Shown in pieces: positions 34,249 to 49,522 of a DNA stretch of 64,000 nt. Made by a program: the position numbers and the translations under genes. Origin of the DNA: Planococcus kocurii (GTDB lineage: Bacteria; Bacillota; Bacilli; Bacillales_A; Planococcaceae); assembly GCF_001465835.2 (NCBI RefSeq), contig NZ_CP013661.2:930001-994000 (forward strand), in the 5' to 3' direction. The number at the start of each line of letters is the position of its first letter. Position 1 is the first letter of the stretch. The notes beneath the pieces were generated by a model that was not told where the DNA came from, did no database searches, and saw only the letters and a program-made list of their open reading frames with translations.

Positions 34249-35506
34249 CAATATAGCTCCCTTTTTGTATACCAGGGAAGCAAGCGAAAATACCGCTACC
34301 TCGATGGGTAATATATTCATTCAGTTTATCCGCACGTCCTAATGCATTTTGAATATTGATAAACTGCTTTGGATTTTTCTGAAACGAAATGAATAATAAG
34401 CCTGCATCATATGCGCCTGTTTCATCGATCAATCCACTGGAATAAGAAAAGCCTCTTCTCAAAATCCGATCTTTCACTTTTCGCGCAAGTGCCATATGTG
34501 AGTCGGCCGGAATATGCGGATTGCCACTAGCATCTTTCGCATTTAAATCGACTTCGTCAAATTCTTTCTTTTTACCAATTGGAGCGCCGCTGTCACGATG
34601 TCTTCCAAAAGTTGCTTCTTGTCCTTGCAATGAAGTTCGATCCCATGTCTCTAAATGCATCTGAATTTTGCGGACGACTAAATAAGTTCCGTTAGTCATC
34701 CAGCCTGTTGATTCATTAGGTTGCACCCATACAACTTCCTTCATATCAGCAGCGCTTTTCGGACTTGGGTTGACGGTTCCATCTTTAAAGGCAAATAAAT
34801 TTCGGGGCGTTTCTTTTTTATCTTTTACTTTAGGTGTCGATGTAAATCCTGTCTGTGTCCATTTTAATGTCACTTTTCCTGTAGCAGCACGCACTAAATT
34901 ACGGACGGCATGAAACGCGACTTGTGGATCATCAGCGCATGCTTGTATACAAATATCTCCGCCTGCAAATTTATCGTCAATTTGGTCTTTAGAAAAATGA
35001 GGCAGCTCAGTCAATTCAGTTGGTCTCTTAGATCCAAGACCAAGCTTGTTGTTGTCGAATAACGATGGGCCAACGCCAAACGTAACGGTTAAGTTAGCAG
35101 CATCTAACCCCGCTGATTCACCGGTGTCTTTCGGTGGCGTAAATACCCCTTGAGAACTTTCTTCCAATCGTTCTCCGTTCATTAAACGTACGGCCAGAGG
35201 AGTCCACATCTTAAACAAGTCCTGTAACTCACTTTGTGACTCCACCAATACATTCAACGAAGCAAAGTAAATGTGCGTGGTGGTATCAGTTGTTATGCCT
35301 GACTGATGTTTTCCGTAAAACAAAACTTTGTTTTCAGCCGTTTGATCGTCATCAAGAATGTCAAAGCCAAAAGCTTTTGCCACGCCACCCATTCCAGAAG
35401 CAAGCACAGCAGCTCCTGCTGCACTTGCTCCTGTGATTTTCAGCATATGGCGTCTTGAAATTTTCTTCTCCAACCATTTTTCGTCTTTTTCAGTCATTAC
35501 ATTCAC
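34223..35506 (-). CDS. efeB: EfeB deferrochelatase / Dyp-type peroxidase (Tat substrate)
   Basis: Heme-dependent peroxidase of 427 residues exported by the Tat system. The signal has the twin-arginine motif SRRHMLK and an AASGMGG-type hydrophobic core. The Dyp signature FKDGTVNP (GxxDG-like) contains the distal Asp, and the proximal heme-ligand His lies in the LETWDRTSLQGQEATFGRHR region. In EfeUOB systems it oxidises ferrous iron or removes iron from heme before uptake. Its stop lies inside efeU, and it overlaps the end of efeO by four bases, so translation of all three genes is coupled. Confidence 0.9.
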   Translation of the reverse strand: MNVMTEKDEKWLEKKISRRHMLKITGASAAGAAVLASGMGGVAKAFGFDILDDDQTAENKVLFYGKHQSGITTDTTTHIYFASLNVLVESQSELQDLFKMWTPLAVRLMNGERLEESSQGVFTPPKDTGESAGLDAANLTVTFGVGPSLFDNNKLGLGSKRPTELTELPHFSKDQIDDKFAGGDICIQACADDPQVAFHAVRNLVRAATGKVTLKWTQTGFTSTPKVKDKKETPRNLFAFKDGTVNPSPKSAADMKEVVWVQPNESTGWMTNGTYLVVRKIQMHLETWDRTSLQGQEATFGRHRDSGAPIGKKKEFDEVDLNAKDASGNPHIPADSHMALARKVKDRILRRGFSYSSGLIDETGAYDAGLLFISFQKNPKQFINIQNALGRADKLNEYITHRGSGIFACFPGIQKGSYIGEKLFNVL

Positions 35507-36348
35507 TCCATTATGATACCCATCCGACTAAGTGGTTCGCCTAACTGGTTTACTGCTTCTGCTAATTGTTTCGTGTCTTCAGAAGTCAATTCCTCGTAAG
35601 AAACAAAACCATCTTCACCCGTTGCGTGTTTGTCTAATAGCTCATATAAAGCATCGAATTTCGCTTGCAAGTCTTCCGTAAGTGCCGCATCTTTCTTTTC
35701 GATTTCAGGTTCTAAAATGTGGAAAATCTTTTCTGCACCTTCGACATTTGCTTGAAAGTCATATAAGTCTGTATGAGAGAATATTTCTTCTTCTCCAGTA
35801 ATTTTCGAAGTAGATACTTCATTCAACAAATCGACTGCGCCTGTCATCATCAAGTCTGGCGTCACTTCTACCGTTTCAACTCGAGCACGAAGTTCTTTCG
35901 TATCGACCAATAATTGATCCGCTACTTCTTCATAACCTTCTGTTGTATTTTCTACCCATAGGCCGTACTCAATTTTGTGGTAACCTGACCAGTCTTCTTC
36001 ACCTTGACCGGCCTCTTCGATATCTGCAAGTCGAGCATCAATACGAGGATCTAAATCGCCAAAACTTTCTGCAATTGGTTCCGATCGCTCGAAATACATA
36101 CGTGCTTGTGGATAAATCGCTTTCGCAGTTTCAATATCCCCGCTTTTCACAGCTTCTGTAAATTTTTCTGTTTCTACTACAAATTGGTTCATTTGCTCAA
36201 TCGCAAATTGTTTATAAGCATCTACTTCATTTTGTAAGTCGATCGTTTCTGCAGCTACTTCAGGCTGTGAACTCGCTTCTTTTTCTGCACATCCTGCTAA
36301 TGCAGCACTTATTAATATGGAAGATAGTAAAAACGGAGCTTTTTTCAT
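35503..36348 (-). CDS. efeO: EfeO/EfeM iron-binding lipoprotein
   Basis: Lipid-anchored iron-binding protein of 281 residues. Lipobox LAGC with the lipidated Cys at 20 replaces the cupredoxin domain of E. coli EfeO, so this is the short Gram-positive type. The rest is an M75 (imelysin-like) helical domain with the metal motif HKIEYGLW (HxxE, about residues 125-128) and a second conserved helix in SHTDLYDFQANVEGA. It delivers iron to EfeU. First gene of the operon and directly under the Fur box; ATG preceded by AGAGGGATATAC. Confidence 0.9.
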   Translation of the reverse strand: MKKAPFLLSSILISAALAGCAEKEASSQPEVAAETIDLQNEVDAYKQFAIEQMNQFVVETEKFTEAVKSGDIETAKAIYPQARMYFERSEPIAESFGDLDPRIDARLADIEEAGQGEEDWSGYHKIEYGLWVENTTEGYEEVADQLLVDTKELRARVETVEVTPDLMMTGAVDLLNEVSTSKITGEEEIFSHTDLYDFQANVEGAEKIFHILEPEIEKKDAALTEDLQAKFDALYELLDKHATGEDGFVSYEELTSEDTKQLAEAVNQLGEPLSRMGIIME

Positions 36349-36580: not shown

Positions 36581-37144
36581 ATGGCTAAGAAAAATGCATT
36601 AACAGCTGAACAGCGAGAAGAACTACTCGGTACGCTGAAAATCCGTTTCGAAGAAAATATCCAGCGTCACGAGTGGATGCAGTGGGACGAAATCCAGAAA
36701 AAGCTGGAAACCCAGCCTGACAAGCTTTGGTCACTACACGAAATGGAGCGAACTGGCGGAGAACCAGACGTCCTAGAGTTTGATGAGACAACAAGCAATT
36801 ATGTCTTTTACGACTGTTCACCAGAAAGCCCGAGTGGTCGCCGAAGTATTTGCTATGATCAAAAGGCATTGGATGCTAGAAAGAAAAACAAACCTGACAA
36901 CAATGCTCTGTCAATGGCTACTGCTATGGGTATTGAACTGCTGTCTGAAGATCAATACCGGGTATTGCAAAAACACGGTAGCTTTGATTTGAAAACATCA
37001 AGCTGGGTTCTGACACCTAAAGAAATCCGCGATCTCGGCGGCGCTCTGTTCTGTGATTTCCGCTATGGACAAGTCTTTTTGTACCATAACGGTGCGGACT
37101 CGTATTACGGAGCAAGAGGATTTAGAGGGTTTTTGAGAGTTTAA
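36581..37144 (+). CDS. DUF4256 domain protein
   Basis: Cytosolic protein of 187 residues matching DUF4256 over its whole length: RFEENIQRHEWMQWDEI near the N-terminus, SLHEMERTGGEPDV, YDCSPESPSGRRSICYD in the middle and FDLKTSSWVLTPKEIRDLGGALFCDFRYG toward the end. Function is unknown. The family is widespread in bacteria, often single-gene. ATG with AGGAGGAAAGCGC upstream. It ends at a strong bidirectional terminator. Confidence 0.85.
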   Translation: MAKKNALTAEQREELLGTLKIRFEENIQRHEWMQWDEIQKKLETQPDKLWSLHEMERTGGEPDVLEFDETTSNYVFYDCSPESPSGRRSICYDQKALDARKKNKPDNNALSMATAMGIELLSEDQYRVLQKHGSFDLKTSSWVLTPKEIRDLGGALFCDFRYGQVFLYHNGADSYYGARGFRGFLRV

Positions 37145-37146
37145 CT

Positions 37147-37205
37147 AAATGCAAAAACCTTCCAGTAGGCACAATGTGTCCTACTGGAAGGTTTTTGCAT
37201 TTTTA
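37147..37205. terminator. Bidirectional terminator, end of the large catabolic operon
   Basis: AAATGCAAAAACCTTCCAGT / ACTGGAAGGTTTTTGCATTT arms form an almost perfect stem of over 20 pairs between convergent genes. It closes both the DUF4256 transcript and the minus-strand operon. Confidence 0.92.
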
Positions 37206-37505
37206 TGAAATTCGCTTATAAATATAGGCTTCATTTTCAATTCGGTCCAAACTTACTTTGTCCCCGATCTCTACGTCTTTTTCGATACGCGTTGTCACTT
37301 TAGCATTGGCTTCATCTAAAGCAACTAATACTACATTATAAGGTGCAATATCTGCGAATTCAGCAGGTGCGATGTGAATTTTGGTGTAGCTATAGACGGT
37401 TCCTGCGTCAGATACTTCTTTTTCTTCGAATGTAGATCCACCACATTCTGAACAGAAATATTTTTTTGTAATAGATTCAGTGCCGCAACAAGAGTAAATT
37501 TTCAT
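37203..37505 (-). CDS. DUF35 OB-fold / zinc-ribbon protein
   Basis: Acyl-CoA-binding partner protein of 100 residues. An N-terminal zinc ribbon (C6/C7 and C18..C21) precedes an OB-fold (about 30-95; GTVYSYTKIH). Proteins of this type form complexes with SCP-x/archaeal-type thiolases and hold the acyl-CoA near the thiolase active site. The gene follows the thiolase gene after three bases, exactly the expected pairing. It is the last gene of the operon, and its stop codon lies in the terminator stem. Confidence 0.85.
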   Translation of the reverse strand: MKIYSCCGTESITKKYFCSECGGSTFEEKEVSDAGTVYSYTKIHIAPAEFADIAPYNVVLVALDEANAKVTTRIEKDVEIGDKVSLDRIENEAYIYKRIS

Positions 37506-37508
37506 GCA

Positions 37509-38642
37509 TTACACCCTTTCTAAAATATGGACAGTTGAGTAAGAACCTGTTCCACCCAAATTTTGTGCCAATGCGAGACGAGATGTTCTATCTAGTTGAT
37601 TAGCCGCAGTTCCACGCAATTGACGTACAAGTTGATAAATCTGCGCGATACCTGTTGCGCCTATTGGATGACCTCTGGACAATAAGCCCCCACTTGTATT
37701 TACCGGCTTATCGCCAGTCACTTTTGTACGCCCTTCTTCGATAGCTTTCCATCCTTCCAAGCGGTTAAAAAATCCAAGTTCTTCTGTTGCAATGATTTCG
37801 GTCATTGAGAAACAATCGTGAATTTCTATCACATCGATATCTCCTGGGCTGACACCTGCTTTTTCATAAGCAATACGTCCAGATTCACCGATTGCTGGCA
37901 GCGATAGTAAATTACTGACATCCTGCATTTTTGTAGGTCCTGAAACTTGTGACGATGCTCTCACATAGATTGGAGATTTTTTACGTGAAATGACAATTGC
38001 CGAAGCTCCGTCTGTCATTGGCGAGCAATCAAACAAGCCAAGTGGATCTGTAATCATTCGTGCCCCCATAATTTCTTCTATTGAAGTTGGTTTTAAAAAT
38101 TGCGCTAACGGATTATTCACAGCATTTTGACGATTTTTCAACGCCACTTGTGCCAAATGTTCTTTGGTTGCACCTGTTTCGTAAAAATAACGGTTTGCTA
38201 GCACGCCGAAAAATCCCGGAAACGTTAATCCAGCATGCTTTTCAGTTGTCGTTGTATCCATTGCCGCATTAATCGCCTGCGTGACGTCTGGTGTAGAAGC
38301 ATGTTTCATCTTTTCAACACCCGCTACTAAAACTGTATCGTATTCGCCGCTCATAATACCTAGCAATCCTTGACGGAAAGCAATACCGCCTGATGCACAA
38401 GCTCCTTCGACTTTAGTTGAAGGAATATAACCAAGCCCTAGTTCATTTGCAACGATTGCTCCTAAGATTTCTTGGTTGGCAATGCTCCCCCCCATAAAGT
38501 TACCTACGAATATAGCATCTATCTTTGGTCTCCCTGCATCAATTAACGCTTCAGCACTCGCTTCTACTAATAATTCTTTCAGCGAAGACGCTGATTTCCC
38601 GAATTTCGTCATCCCGATTCCATGAATATAAACATTCGTCAT
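37509..38642 (-). CDS. SCP-x/archaeal-type thiolase
   Basis: Thiolase-superfamily enzyme of 377 residues that cleaves or forms a carbon-carbon bond on an acyl-CoA. The nucleophile is C82 in EGACASGG, a second Cys lies in EIHDCFS (about 275) and the histidine motif is SRGHPIGATG. The final region reads NLGGTGSYS without the classical second-cysteine motif, as in archaeal thiolases and SCP-x proteins. Because the nucleophile is kept, true thiolase activity is more likely than the aldolase activity of Ltp2-like relatives. It overlaps the acyl-CoA ligase gene by four bases and is followed by its DUF35 partner. Confidence 0.87.
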   Translation of the reverse strand: MTNVYIHGIGMTKFGKSASSLKELLVEASAEALIDAGRPKIDAIFVGNFMGGSIANQEILGAIVANELGLGYIPSTKVEGACASGGIAFRQGLLGIMSGEYDTVLVAGVEKMKHASTPDVTQAINAAMDTTTTEKHAGLTFPGFFGVLANRYFYETGATKEHLAQVALKNRQNAVNNPLAQFLKPTSIEEIMGARMITDPLGLFDCSPMTDGASAIVISRKKSPIYVRASSQVSGPTKMQDVSNLLSLPAIGESGRIAYEKAGVSPGDIDVIEIHDCFSMTEIIATEELGFFNRLEGWKAIEEGRTKVTGDKPVNTSGGLLSRGHPIGATGIAQIYQLVRQLRGTAANQLDRTSRLALAQNLGGTGSYSTVHILERV

Positions 38643-40120
38643 TTGCTCACCTCCTCATGTTGAGTTTTCATTTCACGTTTCAATATTTTTCCATACGAAC
38701 TTTTCGGTAATTCGTCCACAATAAATACTTCTTTTGGCTTTTTGAAACTAGCTAAATTTTCTTTACACAGCACAATCAGCTGATCAACTGTGACTTCTTC
38801 TCTTCCATTTGGTACAACAAAAGCGATGACGCTTTCTCCCCATTTATCATCGGGTATTCCAATGACGCATGTCTCTTTAACACCTTTATGCAAGTTCAAA
38901 ACTTCTTCTACTTCACGCGGATAAATATTCACGCCACCCGAGATAATAACGTCTTTTTTGCGATCTACAATATAGACATAGCCAAATTCATCTCGCTTGC
39001 CTAAATCCCCCGTATGCAACCATCCATCTTTTAACGTTTCATTGGTCGCCTTCTCATTATTCCAGTAGCCTTGCATGACAAGCGAACCTTTTGCAATAAT
39101 CTCACCGACTTCGCCGTACGGAACTTCGTTGCCTTCGTCATCCACTATTTTTACATCAACAAACACACCAATTCTTCCACAAGAATCCAAATGTTCATGG
39201 ATTTCATTGCGTGGCATCATTGTGATACACATCGGAGCTTCTACTTGTCCATACGTTTCTACGAAGATATTGCCCGCTTTATCTAACGCTTCTTGTAGTT
39301 TACTAGCAGCAATTGGAGAACCTGCCATATTGATTGATTTGACTGTCGCTAATTTTGAGGCGTCAAACTTAGGATGCTGAATCATCAAGTTGACCATTGT
39401 CGGAACTAAAAATAGAACTGAAATATTATCTTCTACTAGAACGTCTAAGAATTCTTCTGGTTCGAATTTGTTATAAACGACTTGTGTCAAACCAAACAGC
39501 CAAGCGACGTGACTCAAAAAGTTAGCCCCGTGTGTCAAAGGCGCGACGTGACCAATAATATCGTTATAGTCGACTTCGCATACTTGAGATAACGACAGTG
39601 CCCCAGCAATGATATTGCGATGCGACAACATGACGCCTTTTGGATTCCCCGTAGTTCCAGATGTATACATAATGGCGAACAAATCGTCTTCATCTACTTT
39701 TTCAACAAATGACTGTCCAGTAAACTGCGAAATTGTTTCTTCAAAGTCACGATTCATGTATAAAAAGGGCACAGTTTTATCGACTGTATCGAGTAGATTT
39801 TTTTCTCCAATCAACAAACTCAACTGTGAATCATCAATCATATACTTATGCTCTTTTGGATGAAGACGATAATTCAGAGGGACTTTAACGAGTCCTGTTA
39901 GTGCTACAGCTACATCCAACTCAATATGTTCAAGTCGATTCGACATCAAAATTCCGATACGATCACCTTTTCTAAAACCTGATGCATGAAAAAATGCGGC
40001 CAACGCATTGGCACGAGCTAAAAACTCTTTATAGGTGAATGAACGTTTATCATCTTTTACTGCGATTTTGTTCGGATAAGCATGTGCTGACCTGACTGCT
40101 AACTGTCCTAAAGTTTCCAT
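38639..40120 (-). CDS. AMP-dependent acyl-CoA ligase of the catabolic operon
   Basis: Adenylate-forming ligase of 493 residues. Motifs are MYTSGTTGNPKGV (P-loop), LHTGDLGKRDE (hinge), SGGVNIYPREVEEVL and the C-terminal lysine segment SYGKILKREMK. It most resembles medium/long-chain or aromatic acyl-CoA ligases; the substrate is probably the acid imported by the TRAP system or a product made from it. Placement between the PPC-domain gene (adjacent, no gap) and the thiolase gene (four-base overlap) supports a single pathway. Ribosome site AAAGGAG before the ATG. Confidence 0.88.
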   Translation of the reverse strand: METLGQLAVRSAHAYPNKIAVKDDKRSFTYKEFLARANALAAFFHASGFRKGDRIGILMSNRLEHIELDVAVALTGLVKVPLNYRLHPKEHKYMIDDSQLSLLIGEKNLLDTVDKTVPFLYMNRDFEETISQFTGQSFVEKVDEDDLFAIMYTSGTTGNPKGVMLSHRNIIAGALSLSQVCEVDYNDIIGHVAPLTHGANFLSHVAWLFGLTQVVYNKFEPEEFLDVLVEDNISVLFLVPTMVNLMIQHPKFDASKLATVKSINMAGSPIAASKLQEALDKAGNIFVETYGQVEAPMCITMMPRNEIHEHLDSCGRIGVFVDVKIVDDEGNEVPYGEVGEIIAKGSLVMQGYWNNEKATNETLKDGWLHTGDLGKRDEFGYVYIVDRKKDVIISGGVNIYPREVEEVLNLHKGVKETCVIGIPDDKWGESVIAFVVPNGREEVTVDQLIVLCKENLASFKKPKEVFIVDELPKSSYGKILKREMKTQHEEVSK

Positions 40121-40606
40121 TTATGAGCCACTCCTTTTTGAAAATTGAAATACGGGCAAACCCCAGTGAGGATCAACTCCACGTTGCATACCAACTCCGT
40201 TAATCGGAAAAATTACATATTCGATCGTGACCGCTACCGGGTTTTCCCCATTCAAGAAATGGCCACCATTAATTTGGCGATCGCAGTCAATCATCATGCC
40301 ATGAAAATGAATATCGAGCTCTCTATCTTCTCCATATCCTATAAAGCCAGATCCAGACAATAATTCAACTGGAGACGTGGAGCGAATTTTCTCTGAGTAA
40401 CGAACAGAGCCTTCTTCATCGCCACGCTCCATTTGGACAAATGTTGCATATTGCAGTGATCCAAAACATTGAAAATGGGCGGACTCCACATCATAATAAC
40501 GACATACTTCCTTAATCCCTTCAAACAAATCGACATCTTTCATTAATCGACCTGCAATTCGATGAGATGCTTCATCGAAGACAGCTTGGATGCGAAGATT
40601 ATCCAA
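40121..40606 (-). CDS. PPC/DUF296-domain protein
   Basis: Protein of about 161 residues consisting of one PPC (DUF296) domain: AHFQCFGSLQYATF near the middle, LDIHFHGMMIDCDRQINGGHF with clustered His and Asp residues, and VAVTIEYVIFPI at the end. The motif H-x-H..D..GGH suggests a metal or ligand site. Bacterial single-domain members are of unknown function; plant relatives are AT-hook DNA-binding proteins. The TTG start follows GGAGGG and overlaps the SDR gene by eight bases; an ATG at 40621 is in frame. Tight coupling with pathway enzymes suggests an enzymatic or sensor role here. Confidence 0.72.
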   Translation of the reverse strand: MDNLRIQAVFDEASHRIAGRLMKDVDLFEGIKEVCRYYDVESAHFQCFGSLQYATFVQMERGDEEGSVRYSEKIRSTSPVELLSGSGFIGYGEDRELDIHFHGMMIDCDRQINGGHFLNGENPVAVTIEYVIFPINGVGMQRGVDPHWGLPVFQFSKRSGS

Positions 40607-41345
40607 TGCTAATCCCTCCATCAACTTTAAGCACTTGAGAAGTTGTATAGCTGGCTTCTTTTGTAGCAAAGTACATGACTGCATTCGCAATATCTCGTGA
40701 TTCGCCCATGCGATCGATTACTTGTTGACTCGTGTCATATGGCACACCAGCTGTAATACCAGTTAACGTGGCACCAGGAGCAACTGAGTTACAGGTAATG
40801 CCGTATTTACCCACCTCTTTTGCTACCCATTTGGTTAAAGCAATAACGCCACCTTTTGACGCTGAATATGCAGGTCCTGAACGACCATTTTTTTCACCAC
40901 CAGATACTACACCACCGTTGATTCCTGATACTGAGCTAATATTGACGATTCGCCCATATCCACCTTCTTTCATATGTGGATAAACAACTGCTTGTGTAAA
41001 TAAGAAGGTCGCTTTTAGATTGGTATCTAAATCTCTGTCCCACATCTCAATTGTCATATCTTCCAAATTTAAGCGACTACACGTACCTGCATTATTTACT
41101 AGCACATGGATTTCGTGGTATTTTTCAATCGTCCGATTGATGACAGCTTTGACAAACTCTGGTTCTCTAATATCTCCTAGACATTCCAAATACTCAGCTT
41201 CACCCAATAACGCAATTGTCTTGTCACATGAATTCAAATCCACCAAAACGACACGGGCACCTTCTTTTGCCATTTGAATCGCTACTTCTTGTCCAATTCC
41301 ACTTGCCGCGCCTGTTATAATCGCTACTTCATTTTGCATTCTCAA
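40599..41345 (-). CDS. Short-chain dehydrogenase/reductase
   Basis: Classical SDR of about 248 residues, NAD(P)-dependent. The cofactor motif TGAASGIGQ, NNAG (about 86-89), the catalytic Ser in ISSVSG, and YSASKGG (Tyr and Lys) are intact. An acidic residue (VDLN) after strand 2 favours NAD+ over NADP+, pointing to a catabolic oxidation. A short insertion, GGVVSGGEKNGRSG, precedes the catalytic Tyr. The TTG start is chosen for its nine-base distance from AAGGGG; an ATG at 41354 lies too close and one at 41339 is further away. Probably oxidises a hydroxy acid or hydroxyacyl-CoA of this pathway. Confidence 0.85.
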   Translation of the reverse strand: MRMQNEVAIITGAASGIGQEVAIQMAKEGARVVLVDLNSCDKTIALLGEAEYLECLGDIREPEFVKAVINRTIEKYHEIHVLVNNAGTCSRLNLEDMTIEMWDRDLDTNLKATFLFTQAVVYPHMKEGGYGRIVNISSVSGINGGVVSGGEKNGRSGPAYSASKGGVIALTKWVAKEVGKYGITCNSVAPGATLTGITAGVPYDTSQQVIDRMGESRDIANAVMYFATKEASYTTSQVLKVDGGISIG

Positions 41346-41358
41346 CTTATTCATCCCC

Positions 41359-42684
41359 TTATTTTACATTTAGTAAGTCAGGTAAAAATGTAGAAATTTG
41401 CGGAATATATGTAACTAACATCAGTACAACAATTGCCGCAACGATAAATGGTACAACTCCTCGTGAAATTTCGACGATATTGGTCCCAGAAATCCCAGCA
41501 GCAACGTATAGATTCAAACCAACAGGAGGTGTAAATAATCCAATTGCTAAGTTGACGGTCATGATGACGCCGAATACGGCTGGATCTACTTCTAAAAAGA
41601 TAATGATTGGCAATAAAATTGGAACAAAAATATAATAAGCTGAAATAGCATCGATAAACGCACCGGCAATTAGTAGCAAGACGTTGATTAACAATAAAAT
41701 AAGAATTGGATTACTTGTCAAGCCCATAATGCCATCTGAAATATCGCGCGCAATTTGTTCAGTAGTCACAATATACGCAAAGACCGATGCAGCACTAACA
41801 ATGATCATAACGACCGCTGTCTGTACGGCTGCTTCGATAAAAATTCGATACATTTTCTTGAATGTATCTTTTCGGTTGACGACCATTCCAACAAGTAAGC
41901 CATAAACGACCGCTACAACTGCAGCTTCAGTGGGGGTGAAGAATCCGCCATAAATACCGCCTAAAATAATAACAGGAATCATCAGGCCAGGAAATGCACC
42001 AACAAAAGCATCCCACCGTTCTTTCCCTGTAGCTTTTCTAATTTCTACACCTTCTGGCAAAATGAATTCTCCACGTTTTTCTTGTCGTGAACGTACGACA
42101 AGCGCGGCAATAACAAAAGCAACTCCCATTAAAATCCCTGGAACAACACCAGCCATAAATAATCGATTGATCGTTACAGGAATTTGATCTCCTGCTACAA
42201 CTGCGAATACGATGAACGCAATACTTGGTGGAATAACAATTCCGATCGCTCCCGAACTCGCAACTAAGGCTCCGGCAGTTTCTTTTTTGTAGCCGTTCTT
42301 GATCATTGCGGGAATCAGGATACCTCCAATTGCTGCAACAGTAGCCGGACCGGAGCCAGATATAGCAGCAAAGAAAACAGCGACAATAACTGTAACTAAC
42401 ACAATTCCACTTTTACGGTGGCCAACTAATGTCTGCGCAAAATCAATCAGTCGTTTAGAGATTCCTACATGCTCCATAATGACCCCTGCTAATATGAAGA
42501 ATGGTATAGCTAGTAATGTGAATTTCGCGACACTCGTGTACATAATATCTGTGACCATCTCTAAGCCAAAAATGCCACTTGATGAGACGAGCACAATAAT
42601 AGAAGAAACACCAAGTGAAATCGCAATCGGAACACGCAAGAAGACCAATAAGAAGAATAATCCAAATAACACCAAAGCAATCAT
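41359..42684 (-). CDS. dctM: TRAP transporter large membrane subunit DctM
   Basis: Large permease of a tripartite ATP-independent periplasmic (TRAP) system, 441 residues and about 12 helices. Typical segments are LAIPFFILAGVIMEH, the ISGSGPATVAAIG loop, the GIVIPPSIAFIVFA half-helix and FTPTEAAVVAVVYG. It drives uptake of a carboxylate with sodium ions. It overlaps the small-subunit gene by four bases. The substrate cannot be read from the permease; the clustered oxidase and ligase genes suggest a hydroxy acid. Confidence 0.93.
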   Translation of the reverse strand: MIALVLFGLFFLLVFLRVPIAISLGVSSIIVLVSSSGIFGLEMVTDIMYTSVAKFTLLAIPFFILAGVIMEHVGISKRLIDFAQTLVGHRKSGIVLVTVIVAVFFAAISGSGPATVAAIGGILIPAMIKNGYKKETAGALVASSGAIGIVIPPSIAFIVFAVVAGDQIPVTINRLFMAGVVPGILMGVAFVIAALVVRSRQEKRGEFILPEGVEIRKATGKERWDAFVGAFPGLMIPVIILGGIYGGFFTPTEAAVVAVVYGLLVGMVVNRKDTFKKMYRIFIEAAVQTAVVMIIVSAASVFAYIVTTEQIARDISDGIMGLTSNPILILLLINVLLLIAGAFIDAISAYYIFVPILLPIIIFLEVDPAVFGVIMTVNLAIGLFTPPVGLNLYVAAGISGTNIVEISRGVVPFIVAAIVVLMLVTYIPQISTFLPDLLNVK

Positions 42685-43172
42685 ACTGCCTCATCTCCTT
42701 TATTCACCGAATGCTTTTCTAATTTCAACTCTTCAATGCCCACTTGAATGGTTCTTATGACGCAAAGGAAAGCACCAATTGGGAGTGCAGAAGATAAGAT
42801 CCATTGTGGCCAACCTAAAGAGGGCGTTTTCTGACCCATATCCATTTGGAACATGACCATTTGAAGGCCGTACCAAAGCAAAACACCAAACAAGATTAAA
42901 CTCATCAAAGTTGAAAAGACAATAAAGACTTTTCTGAAAAGCGGATTCATATGATCAAAAATCAACGTAAATCCAAGATGTCCATAGCGACGGACACCGA
43001 CTGCTGTTCCTACAAATGTAAGTAGCACAAAAAGATTAATCGTAATTTCTTCAGTAAATGAAAGCGATAAGCTAGCCATGTTTCGTGCCACAATATTTGA
43101 AAATGCAATAATGGTCATTGTTAAGAAAGCCAGAAATAAAATAACTTCTTCAAAATAATTTAAAATTTTCAA
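42681..43172 (-). CDS. dctQ: TRAP transporter small membrane subunit DctQ
   Basis: Four-helix subunit of 163 residues that pairs with DctM. Family features are the FSNIVARNMASLSLSFTEEI segment after helix 1, VGVRRYGHLGF between helices 2 and 3, and a Pro-containing last helix. Its stop codon overlaps the dctM start. A stem-loop separates it from the upstream binding-protein gene. ATG; the ribosome site is GGGGAGGG. Confidence 0.9.
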   Translation of the reverse strand: MKILNYFEEVILFLAFLTMTIIAFSNIVARNMASLSLSFTEEITINLFVLLTFVGTAVGVRRYGHLGFTLIFDHMNPLFRKVFIVFSTLMSLILFGVLLWYGLQMVMFQMDMGQKTPSLGWPQWILSSALPIGAFLCVIRTIQVGIEELKLEKHSVNKGDEAV

Positions 43173-43210
43173 TACAGTACCCTCCCCGTATCCTGACTTT
43201 ATAACAGGTG

Positions 43211-43246
43211 ACAGGGCTCCTTCATCTGAATTCGAAGAAGCCCTGT
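43211..43246 (-). promoter_or_regulatory. Intercistronic stem-loop between dctP and dctQ
   Basis: ACAGGGCT and AGCCCTGT arms with inner TCTTC/GAAG pairing form a stable hairpin without a T-run. Such elements after binding-protein genes usually protect the upstream mRNA and allow excess binding protein over permease. Confidence 0.6.
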
Positions 43247-43315
43247 AACTATTATAAATACATTAAACCCAATGACTTTCTAGTAAAAGTTTCCCCTGTT
43301 ATATTGAGTTATGTT

Positions 43316-44338
43316 TTACTCTCCTTGGAATGCTTTTAGTAAATCTGCACCCCAGATATCCGTGTATTTATCGTAAATCGGATTTGAAGCTTCTTTAAAT
43401 TGAGCAATTTCTTCTTCAGTTGGCGTGTAAATTTGCATACCTGCAGCTTCTAGATCTGCAATTTGAGTCGTTTCTTTTTCACGTGCAATTTCAACTTGGT
43501 AAGCTGCGGCTTCCTTACCTAGACGATCAAATAATTCTTTGTCTTCATCACTCATGGAGTCATAAAGTTCTTTGTTCATCCCAAGCACGAGTGGATCATA
43601 TGAGTAATTCCAAAGTGTCATATAATCTTGAACTTCTTGTAATTTAGAAGATGAAATAACATCAATCGGATTTTCCTGTCCATCGATTGTTCCTTGCTGC
43701 AGCGCTGTAAATACTTCAGAGAAGGTCATCGTCTGTGGATCTGTTCCTAACTCGCGGTAAAGGTCTGTATACATTGTGATGCCAGGAATACGGATTTTTA
43801 AGCCTTTTAAATCTTCAGGGTTCTTGATTTCCAATTTACTATTTGTCAATTGACGGAAACCATTTTCACCGTAGCCAAGTGCCTGAACGCCTTTTTCAGC
43901 TAAAATTTCCTTAAACATTTCTCCGCCTTCTCCAGCAAATACAGGATCAACTTCATCCGTATTATTGAATAGGAACGGCGCACTAGCTACACCGAAACGA
44001 TCATCCAAAATAGAATAAATAATTGTAGAGTTAAAAGTCAGATCAATTGAACCTTTTGCTAAACTTTCTACCGCTTTACCTGAATCTCCACCCGATAATT
44101 GCTCATTTGCGAATAATTCTAGGTTAATGCGTCCATCTGATTCTTTAGCAAGATCTTCTTTGAGTTTTTCAGCTGCTTCATACCAAGTTGAAGAATCTGA
44201 AACCGTTACCGACATTTTTAAGTCATAATCTTTTGCTTCCGAACCTTCACTACTTTCAGCTTCGTTTGAACCGCATGCTCCTAATACTAAAACTGCTGAT
44301 AACCCAAGTACCGCCATACTCATTTTTTTCTTCAACAT
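43316..44338 (-). CDS. dctP: TRAP substrate-binding lipoprotein DctP
   Basis: Extracytoplasmic solute receptor of about 340 residues, lipid-anchored at the Cys of LGACGS (residue 22). The DctP fold shows in KLEIKNPEDLKGLKIRIPG with the carboxylate-binding Arg, QQGTIDGQENP and the GYGENGFRQLTNS segment. It binds the carboxylate and presents it to DctQM. The ATG has GGGGTGGAG upstream; a GTG three codons earlier at 44347 is in frame but too close to that site. It follows glcF after about ten bases. Confidence 0.92.
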   Translation of the reverse strand: MLKKKMSMAVLGLSAVLVLGACGSNEAESSEGSEAKDYDLKMSVTVSDSSTWYEAAEKLKEDLAKESDGRINLELFANEQLSGGDSGKAVESLAKGSIDLTFNSTIIYSILDDRFGVASAPFLFNNTDEVDPVFAGEGGEMFKEILAEKGVQALGYGENGFRQLTNSKLEIKNPEDLKGLKIRIPGITMYTDLYRELGTDPQTMTFSEVFTALQQGTIDGQENPIDVISSSKLQEVQDYMTLWNYSYDPLVLGMNKELYDSMSDEDKELFDRLGKEAAAYQVEIAREKETTQIADLEAAGMQIYTPTEEEIAQFKEASNPIYDKYTDIWGADLLKAFQGE

Positions 44339-44349
44339 TCTCTCCACCC

Positions 44350-45672
44350 CTAATTTTGGTTTTTGTAAATCGCATCATACAAAAAATCAACAATGTGCAC
44401 TGCCTGCATCTCTTTTTCTAATCCTTCACGCTGAATACCTACTTGCATTTGCATCAAACACCCTGGATTGGATGTCACAACCTTGGCGGGTTGCAACTCT
44501 TTCACTCCTTTCATTTTTAAGTCGAGTATTTTCTTTGCCATTTCAGGCTGCAGAATATTATATATACCTGCAGATCCACAACAGCTCCCAGCGTCGATCA
44601 ATTCTTTATATTCAAAGCCAGGTGCATCTTGTAAAAGAGTACGTGGCTCTAAAAACACTTTATTTACATTGCGTAAATGACAAGAATCTTGATAAGTTAC
44701 AATCGCTTTGCTTTCTACTTGAATTTCTTTTAGACGCTCATTCAAGCCAAGTTTTACTAATAACGACGAAATATCAATCATCTTTCTTGAAAATCGAGTT
44801 GTTTTTTCAGCATATGCTGTATCAGATTGCAGGTGTTTTTCATATTCACTTAAGAAAGCACCACAGCCACCTGCATTATTGACGATAAAGTCGAAGCTGT
44901 CCGAATCGAATGCATCAACATTCGTCCTAGCATTGCGCAGCCCTTTTTCCAACTCTCCGCTATGACCATGCAAAGCCCCGCAACATTGTTGTTCTTTTGG
45001 AATCATTACATCTACTCCGAGTGATTCAAGTAATTCAATGGTCTTACGGTTGGTTTCTTGAAAAAGGGTATCCATCAAACAACCTGTAAAAAATGCAACG
45101 GTTGTTGTTTTTGGTTCAGATGGGGTTGCTCTTTTTTTCTTCGATTCAATTGCTGGAAGTACAGCTTCCATTTCTTTCATAAATGGTGGAAATAGATTTA
45201 AAAACCCAATTTTACGTGTCACGGTTTGTAAGCCGCTTTTTTGGTAAAACTGAACAAGCTTTACCGCTCCTGCCATTTTCTTTTGATCTGCGAATACGCC
45301 ATCAAAAGTGGATTTTCGAACAGCTTTTTCTACGACTGATTTGGTCTTTACTTGTTCAATCGCAACGCGAGTTTCTTCAAGTAACACGCCATATTGAACT
45401 CCCGCAGGACAAGCAGGCTCACAAGCTCGACATCCAAGACACATGTCAAATGACTCTTCTACCGAACCGTCCCATACCACATCACCGTCTCGCATCCCTT
45501 TCATTAAGGCGATACGACCACGTGGCGAGTGAATTTCATCTTTGTTTGTTACTAAGTATGTTGGACAGGCTGGTAAGCAAAAGCCGCAGCGCATGCAGTC
45601 CATCAAATACTCTTCATCGACATTGTCCTTAAACGATTCTTGCATCCGCTGCTGCAATTCAGTTACCACCAT
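44350..45672 (-). CDS. glcF: GlcF-like iron-sulfur subunit of a 2-hydroxy-acid oxidase
   Basis: Electron-transfer subunit of 440 residues. Two 4Fe-4S motifs (CMRCGFCLPACP and CLGCRACEPACP, about 25-90) are followed by two cysteine-rich CCG domains (QQCCGA and DAGSCCGSAG). It accepts electrons from the flavoprotein GlcD and passes them to the quinone pool at the membrane. The ATG lies within the last codons of glcD (14-base overlap) after GGCTGGTG. No GlcE subunit is encoded here; in Gram-positive bacteria two-subunit GlcDF systems are common. Confidence 0.9.
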   Translation of the reverse strand: MVVTELQQRMQESFKDNVDEEYLMDCMRCGFCLPACPTYLVTNKDEIHSPRGRIALMKGMRDGDVVWDGSVEESFDMCLGCRACEPACPAGVQYGVLLEETRVAIEQVKTKSVVEKAVRKSTFDGVFADQKKMAGAVKLVQFYQKSGLQTVTRKIGFLNLFPPFMKEMEAVLPAIESKKKRATPSEPKTTTVAFFTGCLMDTLFQETNRKTIELLESLGVDVMIPKEQQCCGALHGHSGELEKGLRNARTNVDAFDSDSFDFIVNNAGGCGAFLSEYEKHLQSDTAYAEKTTRFSRKMIDISSLLVKLGLNERLKEIQVESKAIVTYQDSCHLRNVNKVFLEPRTLLQDAPGFEYKELIDAGSCCGSAGIYNILQPEMAKKILDLKMKGVKELQPAKVVTSNPGCLMQMQVGIQREGLEKEMQAVHIVDFLYDAIYKNQN

Positions 45673-47092
45673 GAATCACCAGCCTTTTCTTTGTTTCTTT
45701 TGCAAAAATCTTACCTGGGTTCATAATGTTTTGCGGATCGATTGACTGTTTAATCGTTCGCATCAAGTTCATGCCAACAGTTCCAAGCTTCCATTCAAGA
45801 TAAGGCGCTTTCATTTCTCCAACGCCATGCTCACCTGTTATTGTTCCGCCTAACTCAATCGCTACTTGAAATATTTCTTCTAACGCCTTTTCAACTCTTG
45901 CCATTTCTTCTTGATCTCGGACATCCGTTAAGCAAGTTGGGTGCAGATTGCCATCACCAGCATGACCAAATGTACTAATCTGCAAATCATGCTTTAGTGC
46001 AATTTCTTGTATCGCTTTAACCATTTTCGCGATTTCAGAGCGTGGGACTGTTGCATCTTCTAAGATAGTAGTAGGGCGTTTTCGAGATAAAGCAGAAAGT
46101 GCAGCTCTTCTTCCTGTTTTCAAAATATCTGACTCTTCTTCTGAAGCTGCTAAAATTGCGGAAGTTGCTCCGTTCTCTTTTGCTATGGCAATCATTTTTT
46201 GAATATCTTCATCTACTTGCTTATCGTTCCCATCTTGCTCCATCAATAGCATGGCCTCAGCTTCACGTGGTAGACCGATCTTCATAAAATCTTCCACAGC
46301 ACCGATTGTCCCTTTGTCCATAAATTCAAGCGTCACTGGAATAATCCGATTTGCGATAATGGCTGATACTGTTTCTGCAGCGTCCTCTAATGAGTTGAAA
46401 TAAGCAATTCCTGTTTTCTTAGCGATAGGTAGCGGAATTAGCTTTAACGTAATTTCTGTAATGACTCCGAGAGTTCCTTCAGAACCTACTAGCAAAGATA
46501 ACAAGTCGTAGCCTGCCACGTCTTTCGCAAGTTTCCCTCCGAGTTTCATTACTTCTCCAGCGGGTGTAACAACAGTAAGCGCTTTCACATAGTCTTTCGT
46601 TACACCGTATTTTAGTCCTCTTAGTCCACCTGAATTTTCACTAACATTGCCACCGATTGTAGAAATCTTCATCGAACTTGGATCAGGAGGATAGAACAAT
46701 CCGTTGCTTTCGACATAATTACTTAAATCTTGCGTAATGACGCCTGGCTGTACAGTAACTGTTAAATTTTCTTTGTCTAGTTCTAAAATTTCACTCATAT
46801 TATTAAACAACAGCACGATACCACCTTGAGTGGGAACAGTGCCTGCAGCTAAGTTTGTTCCCGATCCTCTTGGTACAATCGGAATTTGTTCTTTTGCACA
46901 AATCTTCACAATTTCTACAATCTCTTGTGTACTTCTAGGCGATAACACCAAGTCGGGCATCGCTTGGAAATTTGCCGTTGCGTCGTAGGAATAGGCAAGC
47001 ATATGAGCTTGCGAATATTTTACGTTTTCTACTCCAACTATCGATAGGAAAGAGTTCTTCATCTCAAGCCCCACGTTTCTCACCACTTTCAT
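45659..47092 (-). CDS. glcD: GlcD-like FAD-linked 2-hydroxy-acid oxidase subunit
   Basis: Flavoprotein of up to 477 residues that oxidises a 2-hydroxy acid such as glycolate or D-lactate to the 2-keto acid. The PCMH-type FAD domain shows in VPRGSGTNLAAGTVP and PPDPSSMKISTIGGNVSENSGG; the C-terminal domain carries the metal-ligand segments FGHAGDGNLHP and GTITGEHGVG. Start is uncertain: ATGs at residues 1 and 11 both have weak ribosome sites. First gene of the ten-gene operon. The cognate CdaR-like regulator gene lies just upstream on the same strand, after its terminator. Confidence 0.9.
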   Translation of the reverse strand: MKVVRNVGLEMKNSFLSIVGVENVKYSQAHMLAYSYDATANFQAMPDLVLSPRSTQEIVEIVKICAKEQIPIVPRGSGTNLAAGTVPTQGGIVLLFNNMSEILELDKENLTVTVQPGVITQDLSNYVESNGLFYPPDPSSMKISTIGGNVSENSGGLRGLKYGVTKDYVKALTVVTPAGEVMKLGGKLAKDVAGYDLLSLLVGSEGTLGVITEITLKLIPLPIAKKTGIAYFNSLEDAAETVSAIIANRIIPVTLEFMDKGTIGAVEDFMKIGLPREAEAMLLMEQDGNDKQVDEDIQKMIAIAKENGATSAILAASEEESDILKTGRRAALSALSRKRPTTILEDATVPRSEIAKMVKAIQEIALKHDLQISTFGHAGDGNLHPTCLTDVRDQEEMARVEKALEEIFQVAIELGGTITGEHGVGEMKAPYLEWKLGTVGMNLMRTIKQSIDPQNIMNPGKIFAKETKKRLVIHGGN

Positions 47093-47192
47093 CTCATCTC
47101 TTTTTATAATTATAATATTCTAACTGTTCTTTCTTCTATGTCCTTTCAACCAAAGTTAGACACAAATCCGTCATATTTTTTGTACAAAAAAC

Positions 47193-47232
47193 CAAATGAC
47201 TCCCTGACTAAAAGTCAGAGAGTCATTTTTTT
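47193..47232 (-). terminator. Intrinsic terminator of the CdaR-like regulator gene
   Basis: AAATGACTC-CTGACT and AGTCAG-GAGTCATTT arms; the stop codon of the regulator lies inside the stem. It insulates the regulator from the operon downstream. Confidence 0.8.
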
Positions 47233-48314
47233 CTATAAAGGCGAATCGCTGTATAAACAATTACTAAATCATTCATGTCATTCAAATTTAACTTTAATAT
47301 TGCTTGTATTTTGTTCAATCTATAAATCAACGTATTTTTATGAATGTGCAGTTCGTCCGCTACATCTTGAAGAGAATTCTTTCGTTGAAGCCATGTTTCC
47401 AAACTCAGCATTAACTCATCTTCTTTCAGCAGTGGTTCGATTGTGCGCTTTAAAAACTCCTCTTGAACTTCTTCCCGGATCGAGTAATAAAGCAATTCTA
47501 ACTTTAGATCTTCCTCAAACACTATTTTTTCTTGTCTTTCAGATACTAAAAGTGCAGTTTCCGCTTGACTGAATGATTCTTTTAAATGCTCAAAGCTATT
47601 AAAGTTGCCTATGCCAATCGGTAATTTTTGTCGTATTTTTTTTTGAATTTTTATTGATAAACTATTTAATCCCTCTATCATTTTTTCTTTTTTAATATCT
47701 GGCATTAACAGGACCAATTTTTCCATCCCCCAGCGAATAATCTTCAATTCTGGATGGATTGTCTGGATTTTCAATAGACCTTCTACATCTGTAACTTCAA
47801 GTTGCTGGTATGTTTGGATTACCGCAACTCGGCGATACAGAGAACTGTCAATATTAATCATTCGTGCACGATCTTCAATAACCTCTTTAGGTGAATTTGT
47901 CGTTACCAAATCAAAGAAAAAGAATTCAATTTCTCGAATGCCCCGCTCTTTCTCTTCTCTTGAAATAGAATCCGTAATGAAAAGCTCTACAACTTTTCTT
48001 ACGAGCTTCGCATATTTCTCTACTTCAGTCGGCTTGCCTGTAATTCCGAGAACTCCAATTGGTGTCCCCGAAACAATAATTGGCATAACAATACCCGGTC
48101 GTACTCCACGTAATTGATTACTCATTTCAGTAGTCAAATGAAACTCTTGCTGATTTCTCATCGAAATGGCAGCACCCTCGTGATAAGAATTCAAGCGATT
48201 AGCATCTGTACTTGCAATAATAAATCCGTTTTTATCGGTAACAATTACATGTTTATCAATCAACGAAGTTAGTTCCTCTACAATTTGAGAACTTAATGCT
48301 TCAAAGTCGAACAT
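47223..48314 (-). CDS. CdaR-like sugar-diacid/hydroxy-acid regulator
   Basis: Transcriptional regulator of 363 residues. The N-terminal sugar-diacid-recognition domain (about 1-130; SSQIVEELTSLIDKHVIVTDKNGFIIAS) senses small hydroxy- or dicarboxylic acids such as glycolate or glycerate. A GGDEF-like central region and a C-terminal PucR-type helix-turn-helix (LQDVADELHIHKNTLIYRLNKI) follow. Members typically activate genes for catabolism of the acid they sense. Position between the glcDF-TRAP operon and a divergent transporter strongly suggests control of both. ATG with GGGGAGATAGGCG upstream. Confidence 0.87.
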   Translation of the reverse strand: MFDFEALSSQIVEELTSLIDKHVIVTDKNGFIIASTDANRLNSYHEGAAISMRNQQEFHLTTEMSNQLRGVRPGIVMPIIVSGTPIGVLGITGKPTEVEKYAKLVRKVVELFITDSISREEKERGIREIEFFFFDLVTTNSPKEVIEDRARMINIDSSLYRRVAVIQTYQQLEVTDVEGLLKIQTIHPELKIIRWGMEKLVLLMPDIKKEKMIEGLNSLSIKIQKKIRQKLPIGIGNFNSFEHLKESFSQAETALLVSERQEKIVFEEDLKLELLYYSIREEVQEEFLKRTIEPLLKEDELMLSLETWLQRKNSLQDVADELHIHKNTLIYRLNKIQAILKLNLNDMNDLVIVYTAIRLYRKK

Positions 48315-48484
48315 CGCCTATCTCCCCTAACTCCTAAATACTTTATGAATTTTCTGTATATGTCCTATATAGCTTAACAGATTCAAAAAGATTTCCCTTT
48401 TTAAATTTAAAACTGAATTTTTAAAATTTTTTCACGTATAATGAATTCTATTGACCAAATACAAAAGGAAGGAAGTGTCTATTC

Positions 48485-49441
48485 ATGTCGTTGATTATGT
48501 TTATCTCTAGTAAATTGCCTTTTCTTATCCTATTGGTTTCAATAGCCACTTATTTTTCTCCAGTTTACTGGCAAGTATCTTCATGGGTGCCTAGCTTGCT
48601 GTTAGGAGCTGTTATTTTTTTTGCTGGTCTATCAATGAATATAGAAGCCTTTAAACAAATTAAAAAGAAAACGAAAGAATTATTAGTTATTACCGGATTA
48701 AAATGGACACTCACTGTGTCTGTTTCCATCGCATTAGCACACCTTTTCTTTTCATCAAAACCAGAAATTGCTGCGGGACTCATACTAGCTGGAACTGTAC
48801 CAAGTGCTACAGCTGCGACTGTTTATACCTTTCTTGCCGGGGGCAACGCTTCACTGGTCGTCGTTGCATCTTTACTTGATGTTGTGATTAGTCCTGTCGT
48901 TACACCACTCGCAATGCTTGGATTATCCAGTGAACAGATCTCTCTATCTTTTTCCGACCTCCTGACATCCTTTTTTTTAATCGTCGTTTTGCCTATGGGA
49001 CTTGGCTTATGGATTCAAAAAATCATTCCTAATTTAAATTCCTACACCGGCTCCGTCACAAAACTGGGAACCTCTTTAGCGTTATTAGTTATTGTCCATA
49101 CGATTATTGGTAGCGGTAAAGAAGCCATCACTTCTGAACTAGCAACCATCCCACTTATTGCAGTAGCCACTTTTATCCAAGTTACTTTGCCAATGGCTTC
49201 AGCATACCTTATTGCCAAAGGACTGAAGATGGAAGAACAAGACGCGCGTGCTGCTTTATTTCAAGTAGGACTTTGCAACACTGCACTCGCTGCCATTCTC
49301 GCTTATAAATTCATTGGAGAACTTGGTGTAATTGCACCTATTTTCAATATGATTTTCAATTTGTCGATTGGCGCGATGATTGCTAACCGTTTCAGTAAAA
49401 TAAACAGTAATTTGAAAGAACAGAAATGGATCGAGACATAA
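48485..49441 (+). CDS. BASS-family sodium-coupled transporter
   Basis: Membrane protein of 318 residues with ten helices, from the bile acid:sodium symporter superfamily (PanS/KpdB-like bacterial branch). Signature segments are the GLSMNIEAFKQI start, AGTVPSATAATVYTFLAGGN (crossing helix 4) and QVGLCNTALAAILAY (crossing helix 9). Bacterial members move organic anions such as pantoate or keto acids. Its position divergent from the CdaR-like regulator suggests transport of a substrate or by-product of the adjacent pathway. ATG after GAAGGAAG. Ends in a strong terminator. Confidence 0.83.
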   Translation: MSLIMFISSKLPFLILLVSIATYFSPVYWQVSSWVPSLLLGAVIFFAGLSMNIEAFKQIKKKTKELLVITGLKWTLTVSVSIALAHLFFSSKPEIAAGLILAGTVPSATAATVYTFLAGGNASLVVVASLLDVVISPVVTPLAMLGLSSEQISLSFSDLLTSFFLIVVLPMGLGLWIQKIIPNLNSYTGSVTKLGTSLALLVIVHTIIGSGKEAITSELATIPLIAVATFIQVTLPMASAYLIAKGLKMEEQDARAALFQVGLCNTALAAILAYKFIGELGVIAPIFNMIFNLSIGAMIANRFSKINSNLKEQKWIET

Positions 49442-49470
49442 GAGTTATAGTGAGTTCTTCATTTTATAAC

Positions 49471-49522
49471 AAAAAGAAGCATCCTAAAGACGGTGTAATC
49501 CGTCTTTAGGATGCTTTTTTGT
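49471..49522. terminator. Bidirectional intrinsic terminator
   Basis: AAGCATCCTAAAGACGG and CCGTCTTTAGGATGCTT arms form a perfect 17-pair stem with T-runs on both strands between convergent genes. Confidence 0.93.

Follow-up and report, generated by a model that had tools for sequence, protein, structure and literature searches.

Thiolytic degradation of a hydroxylated acid has been described in Klebsiella michiganensis, where deoxyribonate is proposed, from mutant fitness data, to undergo coenzyme A (CoA) ligation, oxidation of the 3-hydroxyl, and thiolysis to acetyl-CoA and a 2-hydroxyacyl-CoA (Price et al. 2019, PMC6365646). Here we have analysed a 64,000-nucleotide stretch of the Planococcus kocurii genome (contig NZ_CP013661.2, positions 930,001 to 994,000 of the forward strand; hereafter the window), in which a cassette of twelve genes lies between positions 37203 and 49441. 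The logic of this cassette resembles deoxyribonate catabolism, with a ligase, a dehydrogenase and a thiolase in common, but the gene set differs: the consulted passages of that paper name no PPC, GlcDF, DUF35 or TRAP (tripartite ATP-independent periplasmic) component for the Klebsiella cluster, and neither the CoA-transferase nor the glycerate kinase family of that cluster is found by Pfam among the window's cassette proteins. That is, thiolytic hydroxy-acid catabolism is already known, and the new part is this gene set with its putative PPC step. An earlier note on this DNA had stated that no named pathway is known to hold exactly this set; this stands in so far as the open-access full-text literature (subscription journals lay outside the search) yielded no paper with the gene set, nor an enzymatic role for a bacterial PPC protein, and is qualified by the Klebsiella pathway, which follows the same logic with other genes.

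Other described systems share single parts of the cassette. The benzoylsuccinyl-CoA thiolase BbsAB and the archaeal acetoacetyl-CoA thiolase likewise come with a separate small DUF35 protein (profile and chain matches 7pxp, 6esq, 7yvy), but the window's proteins are far under the NCBIfam cut-offs for BbsA and BbsB (28.1 vs 250 and 203.3 vs 750, respectively). The ysfB-glcD-glcF locus of B. subtilis also has a CdaR-type regulator adjoining glcDF, but is not known to carry TRAP, PPC, ligase or thiolase genes. With our confidence evenly split, we propose that the cassette, which members of the Planococcaceae/Caryophanaceae have or lack as a whole, is a catabolic operon that would degrade a hydroxylated carboxylate by beta-keto thiolysis. 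Its features are as follows.

37203..37505, minus strand: DUF35 (OB_ChsH2_C) protein, 100 aa; Pfam PF01796, 50.8 bits (cut-off 27.1)
37509..38642, minus strand: thiolase of the archaeal/SCP2-like class working with DUF35; Pfam PF22691 and PF00108, nearest solved chains 7yvy and 6esq
38639..40120, minus strand: AMP-forming acyl-CoA ligase; Pfam PF00501, 270 bits
40121..40621, minus strand: PPC (PCC/DUF296) protein, 166 aa, with an HxHG...GGH motif; Pfam PF03479, 59.4 bits (cut-off 25)
40599..41354, minus strand: short-chain dehydrogenase/reductase (SDR), catalytic YxxxK intact in the window; Pfam PF13561 and PF00106, and alignment
41359..42684, minus strand: dctM, TRAP large permease; TIGR00786, 410.7 bits (cut-off 268.45)
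42681..43172, minus strand: dctQ, TRAP small permease; Pfam PF04290, 102.2 bits (cut-off 28.3)
43316..44347, minus strand: dctP, TRAP solute-binding lipoprotein; TIGR00787, 224.5 bits (cut-off 175.05), and alignment to 4P47
44350..45672, minus strand: glcF-like iron-sulphur subunit; Pfam CCG and Fer4 families
45659..47092, minus strand: glcD-like FAD 2-hydroxyacid dehydrogenase; TIGR00387, 550.2 bits, slightly below the cut-off of 567.9
47194..47228, minus strand: terminator-like hairpin in the cdaR/glcD interval; 16 pairs, then a T-rich tail
47223..48314, minus strand: CdaR/PucR-type regulator (Diacid_rec, GGDEF_2, HTH_30); Pfam
48485..49441, plus strand: divergent BASS (SBF) family transporter; Pfam PF01758

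We have searched 261 genomes of the family (Planococcaceae/Caryophanaceae) for PPC proteins. Any match at all occurs in 78 of them, and a cassette-type PPC (identity of at least 43%, E ≤1.1e-33 and at least 118 bits, the next match having only 82 bits) in 53, from ten genera, with 11 of the 46 same-genus genomes positive. All 53 loci were read (the window, L014-L022, L052-L087, L112-L117 and L038), and their genes were counted with the proteins of the window as tblastn queries, at E ≤1e-8 and a coverage of 40% of the query or more. An eight-gene core, dctP-dctQ-dctM-SDR-PPC-ligase-thiolase-DUF35, is found in the same order in every one of the 53 cassettes, accompanied by cdaR in 50, by glcD and glcF in 45, and by the BASS gene in 36. 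The position of the regulator is variable, being between glcF and dctP in nine cassettes, and DUF4256 and efeM/B/U, which flank the cassette in the window, adjoin it in only three of the 53 (the window, L014 and L015). Since the loci were chosen by their PPC, its constant presence is circular, and a thiolase search of the same genomes (E ≤1e-100) serves as the independent check. This thiolase type was found in 56 genomes, of which 53 are identical to those with the cassette-type PPC, while the other three (G229, G261 and G262, with thiolases 67–70% identical to that of the window) have no PPC. The recurrence of the eight-gene core exceeds chance and marks it as one functional unit, with GlcDF, CdaR and BASS as separable accessories. 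The earlier note had taken the genes for a single unit and had proposed a neighbourhood search for the PPC, SDR and DUF35-thiolase set as a check; run across the family, this search recovers the set at 53 of 53 loci, with constant core order in ten genera and the same 53 genomes reached from the thiolase. Its inclusion of BASS holds for 36 cassettes, that of the window among them, but not for the stretches read around the other 17.

Two degenerate patterns, run over the named genomes of 84,980 species, gave 27 loci; the cassette type accounts for 14 of them (L025-L038), and a more distant PPC for 13. These loci overlap with the 261-genome set, and the two counts are not additive. The closest cassettes among the named genomes are from Planococcus and Planomicrobium, and others are from Psychrobacillus, Ureibacillus, Lysinibacillus and Paenisporosarcina (L034-L038). 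No cassette was seen at the remote-PPC loci L023, L024 and L088-L091, which are the few read from 25 family genomes with a remote PPC match only. Some cassettes carry additional genes: in a Planococcus relative (L018, 4878-6502) the cassette continues downstream of DUF35 with another SDR gene and a pair of genes for short proteins, MaoC-like by eye, and genes for YibE/F-like membrane proteins separate cdaR from the TRAP genes or from glcDF in L057, L059 and L066 (by Pfam) and in L058 and L074 (by eye).

The extent of the unit can be read from relatives that have an empty site. We located the flanking genes DUF4256 and LtaS in 45 same-genus genomes, and in three of these without a PPC match (G002, G014, G030) the ends of the two matches are only 66–69 bp apart. 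By BLAST against the window, the three empty-site stretches show homology up to 37131-37147 and again from 49462-49510, with only short matches inside the cassette (13–23 bp, E ≥0.15). Therefore about 12.3 kb, the cassette together with BASS, is either there in full or missing altogether, and the limits of the element given in the earlier note, 37203 and 49441, almost equal the ends of this extra stretch. As for marks of transfer, there is no tRNA in the window, direct repeats shared by the two end regions reach no more than 9 bp, and GC content shows no clear shift (0.35–0.42 across the cassette vs 0.38–0.43 around it).

An alignment of 12 thiolases (of the 15 window and named-genome sequences) shows no variation at Cys82, at HDCF (275-278) or at His325 of a GHP motif. 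Steroid aldolases of the Sal/Ltp2 type also combine a thiolase fold with DUF35, but according to a 2025 paper (PMC12329534) these DUF35-bound aldolases use YDHF or YDCY where SCP-2 thiolases have HDCF, and in CtSal a Gly takes the place of the nucleophile. Since the window protein keeps both the nucleophile Cys and HDCF, unlike the aldolases, it looks like a thiolase, and we have rejected the retro-aldolase reading. The conserved residues thus support the thiolytic cleavage put forward earlier. In DUF35, four Cys (C6, C7, C18, C21) are invariant in 14 of 14 aligned proteins (L033 left out), the first pair being C-x2-C in two Psychrobacillus rows, and they probably form a zinc knuckle. The predicted partnership of the two proteins is drawn from the adjacency of their genes, which holds in all 53 cassettes and in three small modules. 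The acyl-CoA ligase is below the cut-off of every NCBIfam family among the matches listed (best 25 of 109). A PPC-ligase fusion, suggested by open frames of ~660 aa, was considered and rejected, as the reading frame ends in TGA at those junctions looked at and another start follows within a few codons (L062 and L068 are not of that class).

These small modules belong to the three genomes with thiolase but without PPC (L161 6946-11404; L162 9044-13770; L163 6166-10892). Each holds the thiolase, a DUF35 protein (35–42% identical), an MFS transporter, an acyl-CoA ligase unlike that of the cassette and a TetR-type gene, the last identified by Pfam only in G261. They are like the cassette in their thiolase, DUF35 and AMP-ligase, and unlike it in the MFS transporter and TetR, in a ligase only 32% identical, and in that no PPC, SDR, TRAP or GlcDF lies in the stretches read. 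Therefore ligase and thiolase-DUF35 can stand alone, while TRAP, SDR and PPC come and go together; we infer that the former are a self-contained beta-keto acid module, which the latter would feed. The best NCBIfam match of the small-module ligase (L162) is carnitine/crotonobetaine-CoA ligase, and that of the transporter (G261) is a metabolite/H+ symporter, both under cut-off. A carnitine-type ligase at this place would be in keeping with 4-substituted acetoacetyl-CoAs as the substrates of the thiolase. The small module itself possibly serves a thiolytic carnitine or dehydrocarnitine route.

With regard to uptake, all three TRAP components are above curated cut-offs (DctP TIGR00787, DctM TIGR00786, DctQ PF04290). 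Counted along the printed alignment, D88, R165, R186, F209 and N226 of DctP align with D76, R152, R173, position 196 and N213 of 4P47, and none of the five varies among the 15 proteins aligned. In solute-binding relatives, according to a 2024 paper (PMC11668362), two Arg and the Asn bind the carboxylate, the acidic residue usually partners a ligand hydroxyl, position 196 is aromatic, and the ligands are mostly pantoate, erythronate, 2-keto-3-deoxygluconate and uronates. The retention of these carboxylate- and hydroxyl-binding residues supports a hydroxylated carboxylate as the predicted ligand, in line with the uptake role assigned earlier, though the residues do not fix its identity; the predicted structure model of DctP is poor (pLDDT 46.6). 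At the position of BASS, a DMT-type carboxylate/amino acid/amine transporter is found in Ureibacillus (L036, 13487-14461) and Lysinibacillus (L037, 13660-14583), a call scanned in L036 only and under cut-off there.

A catabolic role is also supported by catabolite control. Of 17 regions upstream of glcD, from a subset of the 45 cassettes with glcD, 7 hold an exact match to the known CcpA (cre) consensus, vs 0.02 expected from mononucleotide shuffles, and with one mismatch allowed the number is 11 of 17 vs 0.9.

The PPC protein passes the PF03479 cut-off and carries the three-His motif; H105, H107, H121 and E86 are invariant in 25 of 25 aligned proteins (the window and 24 of the 27 named-genome loci). 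Its predicted model is of high quality (pLDDT 93.7). In a Foldseek search, ranks 1-8 are solved PPC proteins, including one titled metal-containing protein AF0104, and ranks 9-17 are acetolactate decarboxylases, from E 8.5e-4, the best outside the PPC family. The two families have an HxH...H motif in common, but the His spacing differs; PPC has no match to the decarboxylase family PF03306, PF03479 being the only one reported at E ≤0.001. The relation, weakly supported by the model, would thus be one of fold, and we claim no membership. We take PPC to be a putative metal protein, with a fold that may resemble that of acetolactate decarboxylases. A redundant acetolactate decarboxylase elsewhere was found in 0 of 151 family genomes.

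These parts can be joined into the following scheme. TRAP would import the hydroxy acid, whose beta-hydroxyl the SDR would oxidise. PPC would then act on the resulting alpha-hydroxy/beta-keto acid, most likely as a decarboxylase and less likely as a hydrolase, ahead of the ligase, which would activate the beta-keto acid with CoA. Thiolase-DUF35 would cut the product into acetyl-CoA and a shorter acyl-CoA, probably a 2-hydroxyacyl-CoA, and GlcDF, where present, would oxidise the free 2-hydroxy acid of the thiolysis product. The decarboxylase role is attractive because the alpha-hydroxyl left in place would end up as the 2-hydroxyl after thiolysis, the group that enzymes of the GlcDF type oxidise. 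Candidate substrates are 3,4-dihydroxy (2-deoxyaldonate-like) acids or 2,3-dihydroxy diacids; for example, an acid of the 2,3-dihydroxyglutarate type could be converted by PPC to 4-hydroxyacetoacetate and then to glycolyl-CoA and acetyl-CoA, which would employ every gene. Of the earlier interpretation as a whole, the single unit, the uptake of a hydroxylated carboxylate and the thiolysis residues are retained, an obligatory GlcDF step is not, and for the substrate candidates are put forward.

The alternative closest to this scheme, which we consider doubtful, is that a 3,4-dihydroxy (2-deoxyaldonate) acid or its lactone undergoes thiolysis, with PPC as a lactonase or as a hydrolase freeing the 2-hydroxyacyl-CoA. 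The PPC fold superfamily includes an ester hydrolase. In the Klebsiella deoxyribonate cluster a CoA-transferase accompanies the CoA-synthetase, the 3-hydroxyacyl-CoA dehydrogenase and the thiolase, and a lactonase belongs to the Pseudomonas cluster (PMC6365646). Neither a CoA-transferase nor a lactonase family is found by Pfam among the window's cassette proteins, and therefore PPC is the only candidate left for that step. However, PPC is also kept in eight cassettes without GlcDF, where the 2-hydroxy acid would need no freeing for GlcDF, and its nearest characterised fold appears to be that of a decarboxylase.

Less probable again is the linear scheme of the earlier note, in which GlcDF first oxidises the imported 2-hydroxy acid, followed by SDR, ligase and thiolase. 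In its favour, glcD and glcF lead the structural genes in all 45 cassettes having them. However, a 2-keto acid is no thiolase precursor unless further steps are added, and an obligatory oxidation by GlcDF is not borne out by the eight cassettes that lack glcDF (L057, L066, L074, L076, L113, L114, L116 and L084), all of which keep PPC, ligase, thiolase, DUF35 and TRAP. Therefore PPC goes with TRAP and the cassette ligase, not with GlcDF. In five of the genomes whose cassettes lack glcDF, a GlcD search returned relatives of 32–33% identity (G251, G252, G254), 36% (G161, the genome of L084) and 47% (G253), those of the first four being only remote. The window's own subunits miss the equivalog cut-offs for glycolate oxidase in NCBIfam (GlcD 550.2 vs 567.9; GlcF 269.6 vs 333).

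The loss of glcDF is accompanied by a change in the SDR, and this also favours the GlcDF-first alternative. The Tyr and Lys of the YxxxK motif are the catalytic residues of SDR enzymes. In all seven of the glcDF-less cassettes other than L084 the Tyr is replaced by Phe; the gene is open, but the active-site region is shorter by ~15 residues, and L114 has a changed Lys as well. The seven cassettes probably go back to one event. The dN/dS ratio (non-synonymous to synonymous substitution rates) of this broken SDR is 0.15 over 20 of 21 pairs, and we therefore consider it a candidate pseudoenzyme still under constraint; the contrast with the intact SDR is weak, as only 3 of 21 pairs of the latter were kept (dS 0.05–1.5), the pairs are not independent, and both ratios are well below 1. 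L084 is of a different kind, with a divergent core, an intact SDR, and an IclR regulator without CdaR. It runs into a thiamine pyrophosphate (TPP)/lipoate 2-oxoacid dehydrogenase complex and a hydroxyacid dehydrogenase, whose best match, under cut-off, is 2-hydroxy-3-oxopropionate reductase (tartronate-semialdehyde-reductase-like).

Least likely is a role of PPC in binding DNA or in regulating the operon, as a small protein with no catalytic step, as record names of its relatives ('PPC domain-containing DNA-binding protein', 'putative DNA-binding protein') and the nuclear location that abstracts give for plant PPC proteins would have it, since a CdaR-type regulator is already present in 50 of the 53 cassettes and PPC, with its invariant three-His motif, sits between SDR and ligase in all 53.

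On the other hand, several observations count against the scheme of beta-keto thiolysis with PPC as a decarboxylase. Seven cassettes retain PPC beside a dead-looking SDR that is meant to make its substrate, and the joint loss of GlcDF and SDR catalysis in them would also fit GlcDF acting upstream. If GlcDF removes the thiolysis product, the eight cassettes without it would need another outlet. The fold match to the best decarboxylase chain, 1xv2_C, has a probability of 1.00 and an E of 8.5e-4, but a TM score of only 0.46 and a root-mean-square deviation of 11.1 A, and profile alignment (hhalign) with nine acetolactate decarboxylases is not significant, at a probability of 1.7%. The thiolase locus can occur without PPC, as in the three small modules. 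Among 40 other same-phylum PPC loci (20 low- and 20 high-scoring, drawn from the matches in 398 sampled genomes), none has the cassette, and matches to the panel are isolated; this survey was by BLAST against a 24-protein panel, which recognised PPC itself in 5 of 40, so that remote relatives would be missed. No cre match is found in the window itself. Malate synthase, which would draw off glyoxylate, occurs in 234 of 261 family genomes but, by the matches listed, not in six of the 53 (G001, G010, G032, G148, G200, and G227, the last in no matching row), and was dropped as an uninformative marker of glyoxylate production. The assignment of the substrate, finally, is a proposal.

Outside the cassette, PPC proteins are widespread, being found in 147 of 398 same-phylum genomes sampled. 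A second type (31–38% identical) in several Bacillales (L042-L049, L051) lies opposite a MetQ-like ABC uptake system and beside crotonase, FMN 2-hydroxyacid oxidase and CaiB genes, neighbour families scanned in L046 only and judged by layout at the other loci; we count this setting in favour of the proposed scheme. In L124, PPC has a TPP-enzyme-like pair on one side and two zinc-type alcohol dehydrogenase-like genes on the other, and in L146 two FMN-oxidase-like genes are near it. We have also considered that PPC replaces a tetronate decarboxylase in L040 and rejected it: the operon has what we take, from the protein starts, to be a PdxA-like gene beside a DUF1537-type kinase, and therefore PPC is not needed there.

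The layout of the window's locus is in keeping with the description above. Open reading frames and the Pfam and NCBIfam scans agree with the earlier note on all twelve genes, in coordinates and in family; among the matches listed, DctP and DctM alone pass NCBIfam cut-offs. The tight spacing reported there is found at most junctions, with gaps of 0–4 bp or overlaps of 4–23 bp, but not between dctP and dctQ, where the gap is 143 bp. By reading-frame coordinates, glcD/glcF overlap by 14 bp and dctQ/dctM and ligase/thiolase by 4 bp each, and the gaps are 2 bp (glcF-dctP), 4 bp (dctM-SDR), 0 bp (PPC-ligase) and 3 bp (thiolase-DUF35). The SDR/PPC overlap of 23 bp assumes the ATG start of PPC at 40621, chosen from the alignment; the listed TTG at 40690 is a possible alternative, and a glcD start downstream of 47092 is also possible. 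The regulator probably forms its own transcription unit, because a strong terminator-like hairpin (47228-47194) separates cdaR from glcD. An Efe-like iron uptake set (FTR1, a Dyp peroxidase with a Tat signal, and an imelysin-type M75 protein, by Pfam) adjoins the cassette at 32494-36348.

Overall, the cassette is a clear example of a 12-kb metabolic unit that is present or absent whole. Tentatively, and with the balance of our judgement against it, the PPC/DUF296 proteins of this branch may be metal-dependent enzymes, probably alpha-hydroxy-beta-keto acid decarboxylases, that complete an undescribed pathway from a polyhydroxylated acid to acetyl-CoA and a 2-hydroxy acid. Such a pathway would have been built by adding TRAP, SDR and PPC to the smaller beta-keto module, and rewired in one group around a dead but constrained SDR. 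The PPC family is widespread and some of its records are labelled DNA-binding, so that this operon bears on whether the family contains enzymes. With PPC fixed between the dehydrogenase and the CoA ligase in 53 of 53 cassettes, and absent, with TRAP and SDR, from the smaller relative, it offers a direct route to test this and what such enzymes would do.

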